Part shown: positions 6,473 to 44,027 of the stretch, piece by piece
How positions within the stretch are numbered: position 1 is the stretch's first letter
Layout of the letters: each line of letters begins with the position of its first letter
DNA from: Ruminococcus sp.
GTDB taxonomy: Bacteria > Bacillota > Clostridia > Oscillospirales > Acutalibacteraceae
Direction: 5' to 3'
NCBI GenBank assembly: GCA_017473955.1
Contig: JAFUIK010000042.1
Span: 1 to 45,317, forward strand
DNA: 45,317 nucleotides
Position numbers and translations under genes: made by a program
Notes under the pieces: generated by a model
Databases searched by the model: none
Told to the model about the DNA's origin: nothing
Seen by the model: the letters and a program-made list of their open reading frames with translations, nothing else

Positions 6473-7522
6473 ATGAAAAAACTTAAAGTTGATGCAATGT
6501 CAGCTACGTATGAAATACTGATTGAAAGAGATATTTTATCAGAGTGTGATAAGTTCATCGCTCCTGTGGTAAGAGGTAAAAAAGCGATGATTATCACAGA
6601 CACAAATGTCGCACCTCTTTATTTAGACAAGGTTGAAACTGCACTTAAAAACGGCGGTTTTGAAGTTTACTCACACATATTCAAAGCAGGTGAGCAGTCA
6701 AAGCATCTTTTAACTGTCGCTGATATTTACGACTGTTTATCGCAAAATGAGTTCACAAGAAAAGACTTTATCGTAGCTTTAGGCGGCGGTGTTTGCGGTG
6801 ATATTTCGGGCTTTGCCGCTTCAACTTATATGAGAGGCATCGACTTTGTGCAAATTCCGACGACTTTGCTTTCTCAGGTTGACTCATCAGTCGGCGGTAA
6901 AACAGGCGTTGACACTAAGTACGGCAAGAATTTAGTCGGAGCCTTTTATCAGCCAAAGCTCGTTTTAATCGACCCGAACACACTGAATACTCTTACAGAC
7001 CACTATTTTGCCGACGGTATGGGCGAGGTTATAAAGTACGGCTGTATCAGAAATGCCGAGCTTTTTGATATGCTTGAAAATGTTGATGTTAAAGAAAACA
7101 TCGAGGACATTATTTTGGAGTGTCTTAAAATAAAGCGTGACGTTGTAAATGAAGACGAGCGTGAAAGTGGCATAAGAATGATATTAAACTTTGGTCACAC
7201 AGCAGGTCACTCAATCGAAAAGCTAAGTGATTTTAAACTTTCCCACGGCGAGTGTGTTGCAAAGGGTATGATGCTTATAACTTTAGCAAGTGAAAAGCTC
7301 GGCTTGACCGAGGGAGGGACTACCGTTAAGCTTATCCGTTTGTGCAGAAAATGCGGTCTTAACTCTGACATTGATTACTCAATTAAAGACATAGCCGAAA
7401 ATGCAAAAAACGATAAAAAAGGCAGCGGGAACAGCTTAAACATTGTTCTCATTTCAAAAATCGGTGAGAGCTTTATACACACTATTGATAAAAATGATTT
7501 TGAAAAATTCCTAAGCTTTTAA
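6473..7522 (+). CDS. aroB: 3-Dehydroquinate synthase
   Basis: A 349-residue NAD- and metal-dependent enzyme that cyclises DAHP to 3-dehydroquinate, the second step of the shikimate pathway. The NAD loop GGGVCGD, the PTTLLSQVDSSVGGKTGVD substrate region, and the metal ligands (Glu in GMGEVIKYG, His in NFGHTAGHSIE and SHGE) are visible. Length is typical. The DAHP synthase that makes its substrate is not in the window. Confidence 0.97.
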   Translation: MKKLKVDAMSATYEILIERDILSECDKFIAPVVRGKKAMIITDTNVAPLYLDKVETALKNGGFEVYSHIFKAGEQSKHLLTVADIYDCLSQNEFTRKDFIVALGGGVCGDISGFAASTYMRGIDFVQIPTTLLSQVDSSVGGKTGVDTKYGKNLVGAFYQPKLVLIDPNTLNTLTDHYFADGMGEVIKYGCIRNAELFDMLENVDVKENIEDIILECLKIKRDVVNEDERESGIRMILNFGHTAGHSIEKLSDFKLSHGECVAKGMMLITLASEKLGLTEGGTTVKLIRLCRKCGLNSDIDYSIKDIAENAKNDKKGSGNSLNIVLISKIGESFIHTIDKNDFEKFLSF

Positions 7523-7534
7523 GAAGGCGATATT

Positions 7535-8833
7535 ATGTCAACTGCAATAATACAAAAATCCACCCTTAGTGGCACTGTACAGGCACCGTCATCAAAAAGC
7601 GTAGCTCACAGAATTATGATTTGTGCCGCTTTGTCGCGTAGTAAATGCTATATAAAAAACGTAAGTGAATCAAACGATATGGATGCAACCATAGGCTGTT
7701 TAGAAGCCTTGGGAGCAAAATTCAGCCGTAAGGGTAAGACATTATACCTTGATGCAACAAACTTTGTTCAGGAAAACGCTACTGAACATTTTACGCTCAA
7801 CTGTAAAGAAAGCGGTACAACCCTTAGGGTTATTATCCCGATTTGTGCGGCTTTGGGTCTTAATGTTACATTCATAGGCGAGGGCAGACTGCCTTATCGA
7901 CCGCTTGATGAGTACCTTAATTTACTTCCAAAGCACGGGGTTAGCTGTACTATGGGCGAAAGCTTTTTACCGCTTACCATAAGCGGTAAGCTTAGCGGTG
8001 AAGTTTTCGAAATATCTCCGAAAGTCAGCTCGCAATATGTCACTGGCTTGCTTTTAGCGTTAAGCCTTTTAGATAATGACACAACACTTAAATTATCGTC
8101 AGCTTTGGTTGGTGGTCAGTATGTTGACCTAACAACCGACGTTATGCGTAAATTTTCGGTTGAAGCAACAAAAAGCGAGAATTCATACTCAATTAAAGGC
8201 AACAGCAAATTCACCTGTCAGCCTGATTATTCTATAGAAAGCAAAGGGCTCATTGTTGAGGGTGACTGGTCACAAGCAGGGTTTTTCCTGTGTGCAGGAG
8301 CTATAAACGGCGATATCACCGTTACAGGTCTTGATTTAAACTCAGCTCAAGGTGACAAGGCTATTCTGGATATTTTAAAAGCATATGGTGCTAAAATAAC
8401 CTTAGGAGAAAACTCTGTAAGGGTTGAAAAGTCAGCCTTAAAGGGTTGTGTAATTGATGCACTGGATACTCCTGATTTGGTGCCTGTTGTGGCTTTGACC
8501 GCTGTTTTTGCAGAGGGCAAAACCGAGATTACAGGTGTTGAGCGACTGAAATTTAAAGAAAGCGACAGACTGCTTTCAACCTCCGATATGATAAAATCGC
8601 TCGGCGGTAGTGCTTCTTATACTGACAGTTGTATGACTATTTGCGGTCAGGGCTATTTGACAGGGGGCACTGTCAAGGCATATAATGACCACAGAATTGT
8701 TATGGCATCTGCTGTTGGAGCATTAGAATGTGAAACTGACACAGTGATTGAAGATGCTCACGCTGTCAACAAGTCATACACAGACTTTTTTGACGATTAC
8801 CGTGACTTAGGAGGTAAGGTAAATGTTGAGTAG
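7535..8833 (+). CDS. aroA: 5-Enolpyruvylshikimate-3-phosphate synthase
   Basis: A 432-residue two-domain enzyme that joins shikimate 3-phosphate and phosphoenolpyruvate. Visible motifs are the N-terminal APSSKSVAHR substrate loop, SGTTLRV, LPYRPLDE, GDWSQAGFF, FKESDRL and the C-terminal DHRIVMA. AGAAGGCGAT precedes the ATG. Its 3' end overlaps aroC by 11 bases, indicating translational coupling. Confidence 0.97.
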   Translation: MSTAIIQKSTLSGTVQAPSSKSVAHRIMICAALSRSKCYIKNVSESNDMDATIGCLEALGAKFSRKGKTLYLDATNFVQENATEHFTLNCKESGTTLRVIIPICAALGLNVTFIGEGRLPYRPLDEYLNLLPKHGVSCTMGESFLPLTISGKLSGEVFEISPKVSSQYVTGLLLALSLLDNDTTLKLSSALVGGQYVDLTTDVMRKFSVEATKSENSYSIKGNSKFTCQPDYSIESKGLIVEGDWSQAGFFLCAGAINGDITVTGLDLNSAQGDKAILDILKAYGAKITLGENSVRVEKSALKGCVIDALDTPDLVPVVALTAVFAEGKTEITGVERLKFKESDRLLSTSDMIKSLGGSASYTDSCMTICGQGYLTGGTVKAYNDHRIVMASAVGALECETDTVIEDAHAVNKSYTDFFDDYRDLGGKVNVE

Positions 8834-25411: not shown

Positions 25412-25423
25412 GGAGTGTGTATT

Positions 25424-25900
25424 GTGAAGAAAACAGCGATTATTGTGCTTTCTGTGGCTATGGTTATCTGCATTGGAATTATGGGAGCTTTTGCCGCTGA
25501 AAAGGACAGAAAAAGAGAACAAAAAGAAGCTTGCACAGCAGTTATTGAAACTCAAAATTGTAAGCTCAATTGCGAAACTCAAAGCTGTACTACAGTTTGC
25601 GAAACCCAAAATTGCAACGAAAACTGTGGTACAAATTGCAGTGATGAAAACTATGTCGATGCTGACAGTGACGGTGTGTGTGACAACAAAGCCTTAAACT
25701 GCAACAACAATAGCGAAAACAGTGTGAACTATGAAGACACTGACAGTGATGGTGTGTGTGACAACTACTATGATAATTGTGATAACGTATGTGACAGCGG
25801 TCAAAACTATGTAGACGCAGACAGTGACGGTGTGTGTGATAACTACCAAACCTCAAACCATCATCAAAACGGCAAGCACTGTAAAAACAGATGCCGGTAA
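25424..25900 (+). CDS. Secreted cysteine-rich protein with DxDSDGVCDN calcium-binding-like repeats
   Basis: From the GTG at 25424 (AAGGAG 8 bases upstream) the protein has 158 residues: a signal peptide (KKTAIIVLSVAMVICIG, cleavage likely after FAA), then three ETQ(N/S)C units with paired cysteines, then three copies of Y(V/E)D(A/T)DSDGVCDN separated by Asn/Cys-rich linkers, and a His/Lys/Cys-rich end. The DxDxDG pattern resembles dockerin and thrombospondin type 3 calcium loops. No catalytic domain is present. It may be a secreted metal-binding or disulfide-stabilised surface peptide. Function is unknown. Confidence 0.75.
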   Translation: MKKTAIIVLSVAMVICIGIMGAFAAEKDRKREQKEACTAVIETQNCKLNCETQSCTTVCETQNCNENCGTNCSDENYVDADSDGVCDNKALNCNNNSENSVNYEDTDSDGVCDNYYDNCDNVCDSGQNYVDADSDGVCDNYQTSNHHQNGKHCKNRCR

Positions 25901-40749: not shown

Positions 40750-41415
40750 ATGGAAAAATTAACTGTTAAAAAGCTTTATGACCTTGACCACACAATTGCT
40801 AAGAGTCTTTTTGAGACTATTACTTATCCGTGGGAAGCTCTGCCAAAGATTAAGGATTATATCTTAGAGCTTGGTGCAACTCTCGATGCTGAAAAGTTTG
40901 ACAAAATTGGCGACGACATCTGGGTTGCTAAAAGTGCTAAGATTGCACCATCAGCATCTTTAAACGGTCCGCTCATTATTGATGAAGAAGCAGAAGTCAG
41001 ACATTGTGCGTTTATCCGCGGTTCTGCTATCGTTGGTAAAAATGCAGTGGTTGGTAACTCAACAGAGCTCAAAAACTGCGTGCTTTTCGACAATGTTCAG
41101 GTTCCTCATTATAACTATGTTGGCGATAGCATCTACGGCTACAAGTCACACACAGGTGCAGGCGTAATCGCTTCTAACTTAAAGAGCGACAAGTCTTTGG
41201 TAACTGTTATGTGCGACGGCGAGAAGGTTGAAACAAACGTTAAGAAGTTCGGTGCTATGATTGGCGACTTCGTTGAGGTTGGTTGTAACTCTGTTATGAA
41301 CCCTGGTACAGTAATTGGATGCAACTCAAATGTTTACCCGCTTTCATTTGTTCGCGGTTACGTTGAAGAGAACTCAATCTACAAGCGTTTAGGCGAAGTA
41401 GTAGAGAAAAGATAA
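40750..41415 (+). CDS. Left-handed beta-helix (hexapeptide) protein, GlmU C-domain-like
   Basis: A 221-residue soluble protein. After an N-terminal helical part, residues about 55-215 carry hexapeptide turns (IWVAKSAKIAPSASLNGPLI, AEVRHCAFIRGSAIVGKNAV, then VPHYNYVGDSIYG). The block HYNYVGDS and the following asparagine-rich turns resemble the acetyltransferase half of GlmU. There is no nucleotidyltransferase domain, so it is a stand-alone sugar-phosphate acyltransferase-like protein, often annotated UDP-N-acetylglucosamine pyrophosphorylase. Substrate is unknown. Confidence 0.88.
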   Translation: MEKLTVKKLYDLDHTIAKSLFETITYPWEALPKIKDYILELGATLDAEKFDKIGDDIWVAKSAKIAPSASLNGPLIIDEEAEVRHCAFIRGSAIVGKNAVVGNSTELKNCVLFDNVQVPHYNYVGDSIYGYKSHTGAGVIASNLKSDKSLVTVMCDGEKVETNVKKFGAMIGDFVEVGCNSVMNPGTVIGCNSNVYPLSFVRGYVEENSIYKRLGEVVEKR

Positions 41416-41438
41416 TTTTATAATACTTATGTATTTAG

Positions 41439-41461
41439 AAGGAGCTGATTATCGGCTCCTT
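41439..41461 (+). terminator. Terminator after the hexapeptide gene
   Basis: AAGGAGC (41439-41445) pairs with GCTCCTT (41455-41461), then TTTGTTTTA. Confidence 0.8.
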
Positions 41462-41513
41462 TTTGTTTTATCAAGGCATTTTTGTCGATAATAGATAACC
41501 TTATGTGAGAATA

Positions 41514-41542
41514 TTGACGAATTGTGTTGCAGTTGTTATAAT
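41514..41542 (+). promoter_or_regulatory. Promoter of the TIR-GDPD unit
   Basis: TTGACG (41514-41519) and TATAAT (41537-41542) with a 17-bp spacer, 36 bases before the chosen start. Confidence 0.72.
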
Positions 41543-41578
41543 TTGAATAGTTTATTCTGGTTTTGTGGGGGTTATTTT

Positions 41579-42664
41579 ATGCCTTATCAGGTGTTTATCA
41601 GCTATAGGCGCCGAGGGGGAGAGGCACTCGGATATTTAATCAAGGAAAAGCTACAAGCAGCGGGATATATTGTCTTTTTTGATATAGAGTCATTAAGTAG
41701 CGGAAAATTCAATACAAAATTGATGGATGTTATTGATACCTGTAATGATGTGATTCTTATTTTGAATCCTGGTGGTCTTGATAGATGTGTAAACGAGGAT
41801 GACTGGGTACGTAAGGAAATATCTTACGCTTTATCTAAGGAGAAAAAAATTATTCCAATCTTTATGGACGGTTTTGAGTGGCCAAATACTTTGCCGGAAG
41901 ATATCAGCGAATTGAAATACTTTAATGGCATTCATGTGAATTATGAGTTTTTTGATGGTTTTATTCACAAGTTGCAAACTCAGATTTCTAATAAAAGCTC
42001 AAAAAATACAATTGCTCAAAAAGAGCTCAATCACATTCTTGTCTGGGGTGATTTTAATCGCAGTTATCTGAAAAAGATAATTAAGAGAATGAATCTGCCA
42101 GAGGAATATTATATTGAGATTTTGGAGGATCCGCTGGCTCTTATGTCAAAAGACCTGTCTGCTGTAGATACTATTGTCTTAATAGATACAGATGTTACTA
42201 AGCTGTCTAACAATGACTTTACAATAGACCGCATAAATAAAGAGTTGGAAAAATACGTTGATCAGGGTGGTAAGCTGGTAGCGACTCATGATATCATTTA
42301 CAGAAGAACACGTAACGAAGCTTTGCAGGGAATGTTCGGCTGCAAAATCGCCTATTTTAAACAAGTTGAGTCTGTAGAGTATATCAAGGATGAGAATTGT
42401 AACGATTTTGATGTGTTTACGCAGTTGCCGGATAGTTTTGTTTTGCACGATGATGAAATTTGCTGGGGCGACACATCTCCTGATATTGATGTCTATTTCA
42501 AAACTAAAGAAGGTACCCCGCTTGTATTTAGTCGTGAATACGGTAAGGGCCTTTGTGTGTGGTTGAATTCAGGTGATTTTAAATACTATCCTTCGTTGTC
42601 TATTTCCAAACCTGAGAGCCACTTTGTTTTGATGCTTAAAGAAGCGATTTTGATGAAATGGTGA
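41579..42664 (+). CDS. TIR domain protein with a C-terminal ThuA/GATase-like domain
   Basis: A 361-residue protein. Residues 3-135 form a TIR domain: YQVFISYRR at the start, FFDIESLSSG as the BB-loop region, and DDWVRKEISYAL, where Glu80 lies four residues after Trp76 as in the catalytic WxxxE of NAD-cleaving TIR proteins. After a linker, residues 150-361 look like a ThuA/class I amidotransferase-like fold: DTIVLIDTDV, LEKYVDQGGKLVATHDIIY and PLVFSREYGKGLCVWLNSGD. The ATG at 41579 has only a weak GGGGG upstream site; an earlier frame start adds an unlikely Cys-rich leader. The next gene follows after 9 bases. NAD cleavage or a defence role is inferred, not shown. Confidence 0.82.
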   Translation: MPYQVFISYRRRGGEALGYLIKEKLQAAGYIVFFDIESLSSGKFNTKLMDVIDTCNDVILILNPGGLDRCVNEDDWVRKEISYALSKEKKIIPIFMDGFEWPNTLPEDISELKYFNGIHVNYEFFDGFIHKLQTQISNKSSKNTIAQKELNHILVWGDFNRSYLKKIIKRMNLPEEYYIEILEDPLALMSKDLSAVDTIVLIDTDVTKLSNNDFTIDRINKELEKYVDQGGKLVATHDIIYRRTRNEALQGMFGCKIAYFKQVESVEYIKDENCNDFDVFTQLPDSFVLHDDEICWGDTSPDIDVYFKTKEGTPLVFSREYGKGLCVWLNSGDFKYYPSLSISKPESHFVLMLKEAILMKW

Positions 42665-42673
42665 GGTAGTGTG

Positions 42674-43504
42674 ATGGTTGCATTGTTTGTAATTGCAGTT
42701 GTTATAGTCTTATTGTTTCTGGCTTACATATTGGCGATTAAGCCTAACACAAAACGTGGTGAGCAGATGGCACCGTTTGAGAAACAATATATAGCTCATA
42801 GAGGATTCTTTAACAACATCGATGTGCCAGAGAATTCAATGACTGCTTTTGCTTTGGCTGTGAATCGTGGGTATGGAATAGAGTTGGATGTACAACTTAC
42901 GACAGATAATCAGTTGGTAGTGTTTCATGATACGGATCTGGACAGAATGTGCAAAGAGCAGGGACGCTTGTTTGAACGTAGTTATAGCGAATTGTGCTCA
43001 TACAGCCTACTTGATACTGATGAGAAGATTCCGCTGCTGAAGGATGTTCTTAAGTTAGTTAACGGTAGAGTACCTCTTATAATAGAAATTAAATCCGATG
43101 GTCGTTATATTGATACAGCTGTTGAGGTTTCAAATTTGCTATCGACCTACTCTGGAATATACTGTATAGAGTCTTTTCATCCGTTTGTTGTTAGATGGTT
43201 CAAAAGAAATCGACCTGGAGTGGTAAGAGGACAGCTTTCTACTGATTACTATAAAGATGATGAAAAGCTTATTTGGTATAAAAAATTGGTTCTTGCTAAT
43301 TTGTTGCTGAATTGGTTAGCAAAACCTGATTTTGTAGCATATAATCACAAGCATTCAAATCAAGTTTCATTTAAGCTGTGCCAAAAGATTTACAAGGTGA
43401 AAAGTGTTGCTTGGACTATCAAAAGCCAGGAGGAACTGGAACACTCAAAAGATTGCTTTGAAATCTATATTTTCGATAGTTTTATTCCAGACCATAATGC
43501 ATAA
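42674..43504 (+). CDS. Membrane-anchored glycerophosphodiester phosphodiesterase (GDPD)
   Basis: A 276-residue protein with an N-terminal membrane segment (residues 2-21) and a complete GDPD barrel. Catalytic and metal residues are in place: AHRGFFN (His42, Arg43), PENSMTAF (Glu53), GIELDVQLTTD (Glu70, Asp72), VVFHDTDLDR (His85) and IEIKSD. The closing SVAWTIKSQEEL is the usual last strand. GAGGTAG precedes the ATG; a GTG three bases earlier is possible. It is cotranscribed with the TIR gene. Known relatives cleave glycerophosphodiesters; anchoring suggests a lipid-derived substrate. Confidence 0.93.
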   Translation: MVALFVIAVVIVLLFLAYILAIKPNTKRGEQMAPFEKQYIAHRGFFNNIDVPENSMTAFALAVNRGYGIELDVQLTTDNQLVVFHDTDLDRMCKEQGRLFERSYSELCSYSLLDTDEKIPLLKDVLKLVNGRVPLIIEIKSDGRYIDTAVEVSNLLSTYSGIYCIESFHPFVVRWFKRNRPGVVRGQLSTDYYKDDEKLIWYKKLVLANLLLNWLAKPDFVAYNHKHSNQVSFKLCQKIYKVKSVAWTIKSQEELEHSKDCFEIYIFDSFIPDHNA

Positions 43505-43509
43505 CTGAA

Positions 43510-43544
43510 AAAGGTCACACTGACAAGCTGTCGGTGTGACCTTT
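43510..43544. terminator. Bidirectional terminator after the TIR-GDPD unit
   Basis: AAAGGTCACACTGACA and its complement (one G-T pair) form a stem of about 16 bp with loop AGC, with A and T runs on both sides; it separates two convergent genes. Confidence 0.88.
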
Positions 43545-43550
43545 AATACA

Positions 43551-44027
43551 TTATTGCTGTGTTTGTGTGGCACATAGCTCTGTAATATTTGAAAATAACG
43601 GCATAAATATTTCATTGACATTCACGCCTGTGCAGATTACATCCAGATTGTCTGGTGCATTTGATAGGAAGTCGTGAACTTCTGTTTCGAGTAGAAAGCC
43701 TTTTTCTACTGCATCGAAAACTCCGTCTAGTACAAGCATATCAAATTTTCTGGTCAGCACGGTGACAACTGCTGAATCGAACAGCTCTCTGAAAACCTTT
43801 CCCACCTGAGCCTTGTTTTCGTTTAGCGAGTCTGTCATAAGCTCAAGGTCTACAGGAGCACTTGATACGGTGATATACGCACTTTCCAAAGCTTTTCTGT
43901 CGGATAACTCATTTTGCCTGATAAATTCAACGAAAAGCACTTTCTTATCTTTTGACGAAGCTCTTAAAGCTGTACCGATTGCACAGCAGGTCTTGCCTTT
44001 TCCATCTCCGTAGTATAAAGCGAGCAT
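43551..44027 (-). CDS. Divergent CobO/BtuR-like P-loop protein
   Basis: A 158-residue protein opening with LALYYGDGKGKTCCAIGTAL, the P-loop of the CobO/BtuR corrinoid adenosyltransferase family (GDGKGKT at 7-13), and VLFVEFIRQ. The usual VILDE motif reads VLDGVFDAVEKGFL and the usual TGR reads TGV, so two conserved positions differ and adenosyltransferase activity is doubtful. The ATG at 44027 is preferred because AAAGG lies 9 bases upstream; the ATG at 44036 abuts it. No cobalamin genes or riboswitch are nearby. Confidence 0.75.
   Translation of the reverse strand: MLALYYGDGKGKTCCAIGTALRASSKDKKVLFVEFIRQNELSDRKALESAYITVSSAPVDLELMTDSLNENKAQVGKVFRELFDSAVVTVLTRKFDMLVLDGVFDAVEKGFLLETEVHDFLSNAPDNLDVICTGVNVNEIFMPLFSNITELCATQTQQ

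Follow-up and report, generated by a model that had tools for sequence, protein, structure and literature searches.

Overall architecture of the locus

The union of a TIR and a ThuA-like domain in one protein, followed by a glycerophosphodiesterase (GDPD) with a membrane anchor, raises the question of whether the two proteins work together, which part of the arrangement is its core, and whether its role is immunity. The window, by which we mean the whole stretch of DNA that was analysed, is a single contig of 45,317 bases from a Clostridia genome of 1.6 Mb that is 83% complete. On its + strand, positions 41579-42664 encode a protein of 361 residues and positions 42671-43504 a protein of 277 residues. 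The features of the region are as follows.

41437..41463, + strand: terminator of the upstream nucleotidyltransferase-like gene (terminator scan and fold; same element in L014, L015 and L016)
41471..43575, no strand: insertion, approximate extent, between two convergent conserved genes (blastn against the loci of 29 relatives)
41514..41542, + strand: likely sigma-70 promoter, TTGACG-17-TATAAT, with TG ahead of the -10 (11/12 matches)
41579..42013, + strand: TIR domain, residues 1-145, SARM1-like, with W76 and E80 (Pfam TIR_2, PDB SARM1 match, W and E kept in 13/13 aligned TIRs)
42014..42664, + strand: ThuA-like domain, residues 146-361, a distinct family with an HD elbow and GD replacing GH (Pfam ThuA, hhalign, signature)
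42671..43504, + strand: GDPD with one N-terminal span and the motifs AHRG, PENS, IELDV, FHD and EIK (Pfam, PDB 2pz0, motifs, hydropathy)
43510..43544, no strand: hairpin of 16 bp in the space that separates the GDPD gene from the convergent gene, probably a host terminator (fold; similar hairpin in L011)

The GDPD gene starts either at the GTG at 42671, 6 nt past the TIR-ThuA stop, or at the ATG at 42674, 9 nt past it, and the distance of 9 bases given in the first-pass annotation holds for the ATG. The fusion of the TIR and ThuA-like domains, the intact-looking GDPD and the reading of the two genes as one unit were also supported. That annotation had further described a closed unit with one promoter and one terminator, which is only partly supported: the promoter is plausible, and the terminator is probably not the pair's own. 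The site at 41514..41542 was the best of 11 in our scan, a number that is not above chance (shuffles give 10.1, sd 3.0), and its sequence makes it a plausible promoter. The hairpin at 43510-43544 folds with -25.2 kcal/mol (z -7.1), was not among the terminators listed by the scan, and has a weak T tail on the + strand. Since the corresponding gap of L011, a relative without the gene pair, contains a similar hairpin, this element probably belongs to the host and not to the pair. The terminator at 41437..41463 likewise occurs in relatives that do not carry the pair (the three named above).

The gene pair occupies an insertion

The block is an insertion of about 2.1 kb between conserved convergent genes. 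When the window was compared by blastn with the loci of 29 relatives, the alignments ended at 41415-41471 and restarted at 43574-43627. The ten nearest relatives, which are 88-98% identical in the nucleotidyltransferase-like gene, were the informative ones. In seven of these ten the gap to the convergent ATPase gene is 49-85 nt, compared with 2139 nt in the window; L012 (1128 nt) and L013 (838 nt) carry other cargo, and L018 has an acyltransferase-like gene, the ATPase gene being absent from its piece. The remaining 19 of the 29 loci have no such ATPase gene. The nucleotidyltransferase-ATPase gap (window 41415-43551) takes varied cargo, namely an acyltransferase-like gene in L012 and L018 and a small regulator with a membrane protein in L013.

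The nucleotidyltransferase-like gene upstream is shared by most of the genus (136 of 150 genomes). Full-length TIR-ThuA occurred in none of 97 other relatives sampled (partial match in 5), and a GDPD search of the genus gave matches, all weak, in 47 of 149 other genomes (best 2.8e-12); in the genus as sampled, neither protein is matched over its full length. The G+C content is 36.7% in the block and 38.8 and 39.4% in the flanks. The rare and scattered occurrence of the pair and the empty site in relatives fit horizontal spread. No defence neighbourhood was seen: the flanks are housekeeping genes, and when seven other window proteins were compared with defence models, none matched save one histidine kinase, whose kinase end hit the candidate model PDC-M43B (1.8e-7). 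Elsewhere in the window, positions 25415-25900 encode a protein of 161 residues with repeated cysteine- and asparagine-rich units.

The TIR domain resembles SARM1

Pfam TIR_2 matched residues 5-116 (E 4.9e-12). A PDB search with the window TIR retrieved 19 sequences at E<=0.001, all of them SARM1 or its worm homologue tir-1, with a best value of 4.4e-31. The stretch DDWVRKE aligns on DWVHKE of SARM1, so that Trp76 and Glu80, which had been noted as a WxxxE pattern, fall at the claimed positions on the WxxxE of SARM1. We take the glutamate of that motif to be the catalytic residue of SARM1. The TIR tree was largely without resolution (1 of 10 inner branches starred), and other TIR proteins of Clostridia have quite different second halves. 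One of them (L071 1492-3078, G511) combines its TIR with leucine-rich repeats of the BspA type and a CutA1 domain. The window genome itself contains a second SARM1-like TIR protein (L076 6496-7497, G000:C49), which is 39% identical over 131 residues and whose second half is different and has no Pfam name; by eye, L065 (G457) resembles this second protein.

A preprint, as far as its available portion goes, groups the SARM1 TIR within a clade that is mostly bacterial (PMC13142454). A gut survey, in its accessible part, detected NADase activity in vitro in only 28 of 152 bacterial TIRs and may have missed some active ones (PMC9092222), so that NADase activity of the window TIR cannot be assumed. 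Judging from its sequence, we consider it probable that the window TIR is an active NADase.

The ThuA-like domain belongs to a divergent subfamily

The C-terminal half had been called ThuA-like, and our comparisons support a distant likeness, although the window protein itself lies just under the cut-off of Pfam ThuA PF06283 (E 1.2e-7, 32.7 bits versus 33.4). Two homologues that lack a TIR passed it (G510, 38.4 bits; G747, 37.1 bits), two others fell under it (G478, 25.6 bits; L078, 23.3 bits), and the fragment from G460 gave no match in the same search. These six sequences, the window included, make up the family as found here. A profile of all six aligned over 192 columns with six ordinary ThuA proteins, at an hhalign probability of 95%.

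In a tree with 17 ordinary ThuA proteins, the six domains formed one clade (100/98, with a long-branch warning), G460 filling 41% of the columns. The match to the ThuA family extends across the domain, and the elbow His is conserved, being kept in all five members with letters there and in 16 of the 17 ordinary proteins. The family differs in two respects. First, the residue after the elbow His is Asp in the same five of five members and in 0/17 ordinary ThuA proteins. Second, the terminal GH is GD in 6/6 members, whereas the H is present in 16/17 ordinary proteins; the pattern of elbow His and terminal GH was derived here from those 17. By tree and signature, the ThuA-like domains form a divergent ThuA subfamily. 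Five further candidates (G837, G993, G1207, G1156 and G087) were weak matches outside the clade, and G401 was dropped because, by eye, its frame encodes a protein of the flagellar type.

Ordinary ThuA proteins occur commonly (in 22 of 58 genomes sampled from the class, E<=1e-10), and to our knowledge no ligand or function has been assigned to them. According to the portion available of one report, a ThuA-domain mutation was common to three phage-resistant Cutibacterium acnes isolates, among several mutations (PMC12733950).

The GDPD and the single membrane anchor

The second protein had been described as a GDPD with an N-terminal anchor and all catalytic residues, and our results agree. It matched Pfam GDPD PF03009 with 76.6 bits (cut-off 23.6, E 4.3e-21), the HR, E-x-D, H and E-x-K motifs are present, and a profile of five members matched PDB 2pz0 at 7.8e-26. 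The motifs are complete in 4/4 whole GDPDs. A Pfam scan of the window GDPD found no added ligand domain, only the catalytic barrel and one span. This hydrophobic span covers residues 5-23.

We compared the anchors by the best 19-residue hydropathy mean. In the window this value is 3.34 for the GDPD and 1.09 for TIR-ThuA; it is 1.24 for the GDPD and 2.07 for the ThuA-like protein in G510, and 1.19 and 2.27, respectively, in G747. Exactly one protein is spanned in each of these three pairs, the ones in which both proteins are whole. L078 agrees so far as it is readable (GDPD 3.07, ThuA-like front missing), and G478 was excluded from the comparison as its gene starts are lost. GDPDs outside pairs can be anchored too, as in L101, which is spanned (3.21) yet unpaired. 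By eye, Lys and Arg residues past the spans hint at domains on the cytoplasmic side.

The ThuA-like domain and the GDPD recur together

The ThuA-like domain is accompanied by a GDPD in five of the six loci, from at least four families. The genes are adjacent in the window, G478, L078 and G510, so that the pair is not limited to one strain. G478 (Hominisplanchenecus faecis; Clostridia, Lachnospiraceae) has the gene order of the window with 52-55% identity in both genes, in a broken copy that has lost the TIR start and the GDPD start (L072 8810-10500). In L078, a MAG from goat caecum, the ThuA-like gene is open at the first base of the contig, which begins after any TIR, and the GDPD follows 15 nt past the ThuA-like stop (52-53% identical). 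The two remaining pairs are of another type, with no TIR, the anchor on the ThuA-like protein and not on the GDPD, and the gene order reversed relative to the window. In G510 the GDPD gene comes first and the ThuA-like gene, with a span at its front, overlaps it by 11 nt; in G747 the GDPD gene is followed after 1.9 kb by a spanned ThuA-like gene on the same strand. Frames that look transposase-like by eye lie between the two genes of G747 (L085 8124-11662), and another transposase-like gene is at 6616-7887.

The TIR was confirmed in only two members, the window and G478. Based on these observations, we take the ThuA-like domain and the GDPD to be the conserved core, with the TIR as an added output. 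The sixth locus, G460, begins inside the ThuA-like gene, and a search of the whole genome with the G510 GDPD found none; its assembly consists of 400 contigs and is 95% complete, and the case would speak against universal pairing unless the GDPD is missing from the assembly.

Members of the ThuA-like family are rare. In five overlapping genome samples they were found in 4/391 genomes of the class (window, G478, G510 and G460), 2/398 of the phylum, 1/299 of the family of G478, 1/37 of the class of G747 and 2/22 of the family of G510. Of the 144 pattern matches from a profile scan of genome contigs, four were relatives; G747 was not picked up, so that the scan is not exhaustive. Single-sequence scans of genome contigs and viral contigs gave no relatives, nor did phage records, and four matches in plasmid records covered the TIR half only.

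The partner GDPDs fall into two branches

The GDPD profile matched 69 of 391 genomes of the class at E<=1e-25. Among the best 30 GDPD loci from these 69 genomes, three have a ThuA-like domain and 27 have none within about 1.5 kb, which indicates that this GDPD does not need a ThuA-like gene. The GDPD tree comprised 34 rows, five paired and 29 unpaired, the latter taken from the 27 best unpaired loci of the 69 matching genomes (two loci yielding two rows). The partners of the TIR type grouped with L101 (97/94), and those of the type with a spanned ThuA-like protein grouped with L100 and L106 (96/95). The two branches are separated by branches of 100/98 and both hold unpaired members, the forks within each not being settled. 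Forcing the five paired GDPDs into one clade cost 116 log-likelihood units (p-AU 7e-65). When the N-terminus, the partial G478 row and L121 were left out, the four remaining still cost 105 units (p 3e-65), and the idea that the GDPD pairing arose only once was rejected. GDPDs of the window's own genus were dropped as background for this tree; against them the paired ones seemed one clade only because near relatives were missing.

Since the ThuA-like domains are one clade and their partner GDPDs belong to two branches, the GDPD was, according to these trees, recruited twice or replaced beside the ThuA-like domain, which argues for functional coupling. We regard this second recruitment or replacement as the strongest sign that the ThuA-like domain requires an adjoining GDPD, and on the sequences compared here we regard coupling of the two as very likely.

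Comparison with known systems

In the literature searched, which covered few subscription papers, we found no description of a TIR-ThuA/GDPD or a ThuA/GDPD link, in agreement with the earlier remark that no described system with this pair was known to its author. The closest known systems each share part of the arrangement. First, the SARM1 and TIR-1 NADases share the TIR sequence, the SGKF on the BB-loop side and the WxxxE alignment, but the window protein contains no ARM or SAM domains, is fused to a ThuA-like domain and is paired with a GDPD. Second, Thoeris (a ThsB TIR plus effector) also combines, within a small operon, a TIR protein and a partner linked to the membrane, whereas Pfam finds in the window pair no effector of the SIR2/SLOG, Macro or caspase type. 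PADLOC models matched only the TIR half of TIR-ThuA, the scores for ThsB_TIR (15.7 versus 21.2) and for the NCBIfam model ThcB4 (40.1 versus 220) are under the curated cut-offs, that for ThcB4 by far, and an adjacent ThsA-type effector is absent, the partner matching GDPD and no PADLOC model. Third, SpbK, a single-gene TIR NADase of Bacillus subtilis, is similar in that its own second part could sense the trigger; it has no GDPD partner, and its sensing part is apparently not ThuA-like, as far as the available part of that report describes it (PMC12847820). Finally, the small GDPDs of Clostridia and 2pz0 share the barrel and the catalytic motifs, but the paired ones adjoin a ThuA-like gene, unlike the 27 unpaired loci above. 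The recurrent ThuA-like/GDPD pairing, the loci without a TIR and the two GDPD branches, as read from these genomes, are new here, and the ThuA-like protein and the GDPD would be an undescribed two-protein system.

Proposed mechanism and alternatives

The domains, motifs, insertion, recurrent pairing, two GDPD branches and exchanged anchor are features of the sequences themselves, and we suggest a mechanism built around them. The locus would be a module of two genes gained by horizontal transfer and built on a partnership, tethered to the membrane, of a divergent ThuA-like protein and a small GDPD facing the cytoplasm. The ThuA-like domain may bind or act on a small ligand of the glycerophosphodiester or lysolipid type, which the GDPD would make or remove at the inner face of the membrane. 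In the window subtype, the ThuA-like protein would carry a SARM1-like TIR at its front instead of the anchor, and the state of the ThuA-like/GDPD pair would control NAD+ cleavage by the TIR. The most likely purpose would be to answer a disturbance of the membrane lipids with a stress or abortive-infection response. The physical contact, the facing side, the ligand, the NADase activity and the defence role in this scheme are all what we infer. The whole chain, from ligand handling by the pair to NAD+ cleavage by the TIR, is tentative, and it is more likely than not that it does not hold in full. A main role in phage defence is plausible and falls just short of an even balance, given the few and partly broken copies, no match to a known system and no defence neighbourhood.

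The pair could instead be a unit of lipid turnover, in which the ThuA-like protein and the GDPD are consecutive enzymes, or an enzyme and its regulator, that recycle glycerophosphodiesters or teichoic-acid-like polymers, the TIR serving as a scaffold or having been added late, without a part in immunity. The TIR-less versions in G510 and G747, the membership of the GDPD in a common small-GDPD group and the housekeeping genes on the flanks are in line with this, but the rare, scattered occurrence with empty sites is unlike housekeeping, and the TIR retains its catalytic W and E. We consider this explanation unlikely.

The GDPD may also act as a guard that keeps the TIR-ThuA NADase silent in the manner of a toxin-antitoxin pair, its loss or inhibition freeing the NADase. 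The tight gene order with the GDPD second and the single anchor per pair would suit such an arrangement; however, the GDPD of G510 and G747 partners a ThuA-like protein without any toxin-type domain, and we find the guard improbable.

In a Thoeris-like scheme, which we judge even more doubtful, the TIR would make a signal of the cyclic ADP-ribose type that switches on the membrane GDPD as an effector damaging phospholipid. The TIR adjoins a membrane enzyme and resembles ThsB models (7.4e-11), but the GDPD has no extra ligand domain in Pfam beyond its bare barrel and span, the ThuA-like/GDPD pairing is found without a TIR, and four unrelated TIR fusions match the NCBIfam ThcB4 model, for which the window reached 40.1 bits against 220, at 23.6-49.2 bits. 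Since TIR-less pairs exist, we favour a GDPD that partners the ThuA-like domain over one that serves as the effector of a TIR signal. The interpretation in the first-pass annotation is partly supported: its two-gene unit stands, and its GDPD effector is the less likely role.

That the genes are chance neighbours in a slot accepting varied cargo, as the other contents of L012, L018 and L013 might suggest, is very improbable, as the pairing is repeated in five loci with GDPDs from two branches.

Returning to the lipid-linked module, we propose that the ThuA-like/GDPD pair might be a membrane-tethered sensor of lipid metabolites with an exchangeable front end and, in gut Clostridia where that front end is a SARM1-like TIR, an immune system in which phospholipid turnover is sensed and NAD+ is destroyed in reply, a proposal that we rate as possible and rather unlikely. 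The TIR-less pairs offer a ready control for the ThuA-like domain and the GDPD alone. Were the proposal to hold, TIR immunity would gain a trigger linked to lipids, two kinds of protein for which we found no link in print would acquire a role, and the switching on and off of a SARM1-like NADase could be dissected in a small system from bacteria.
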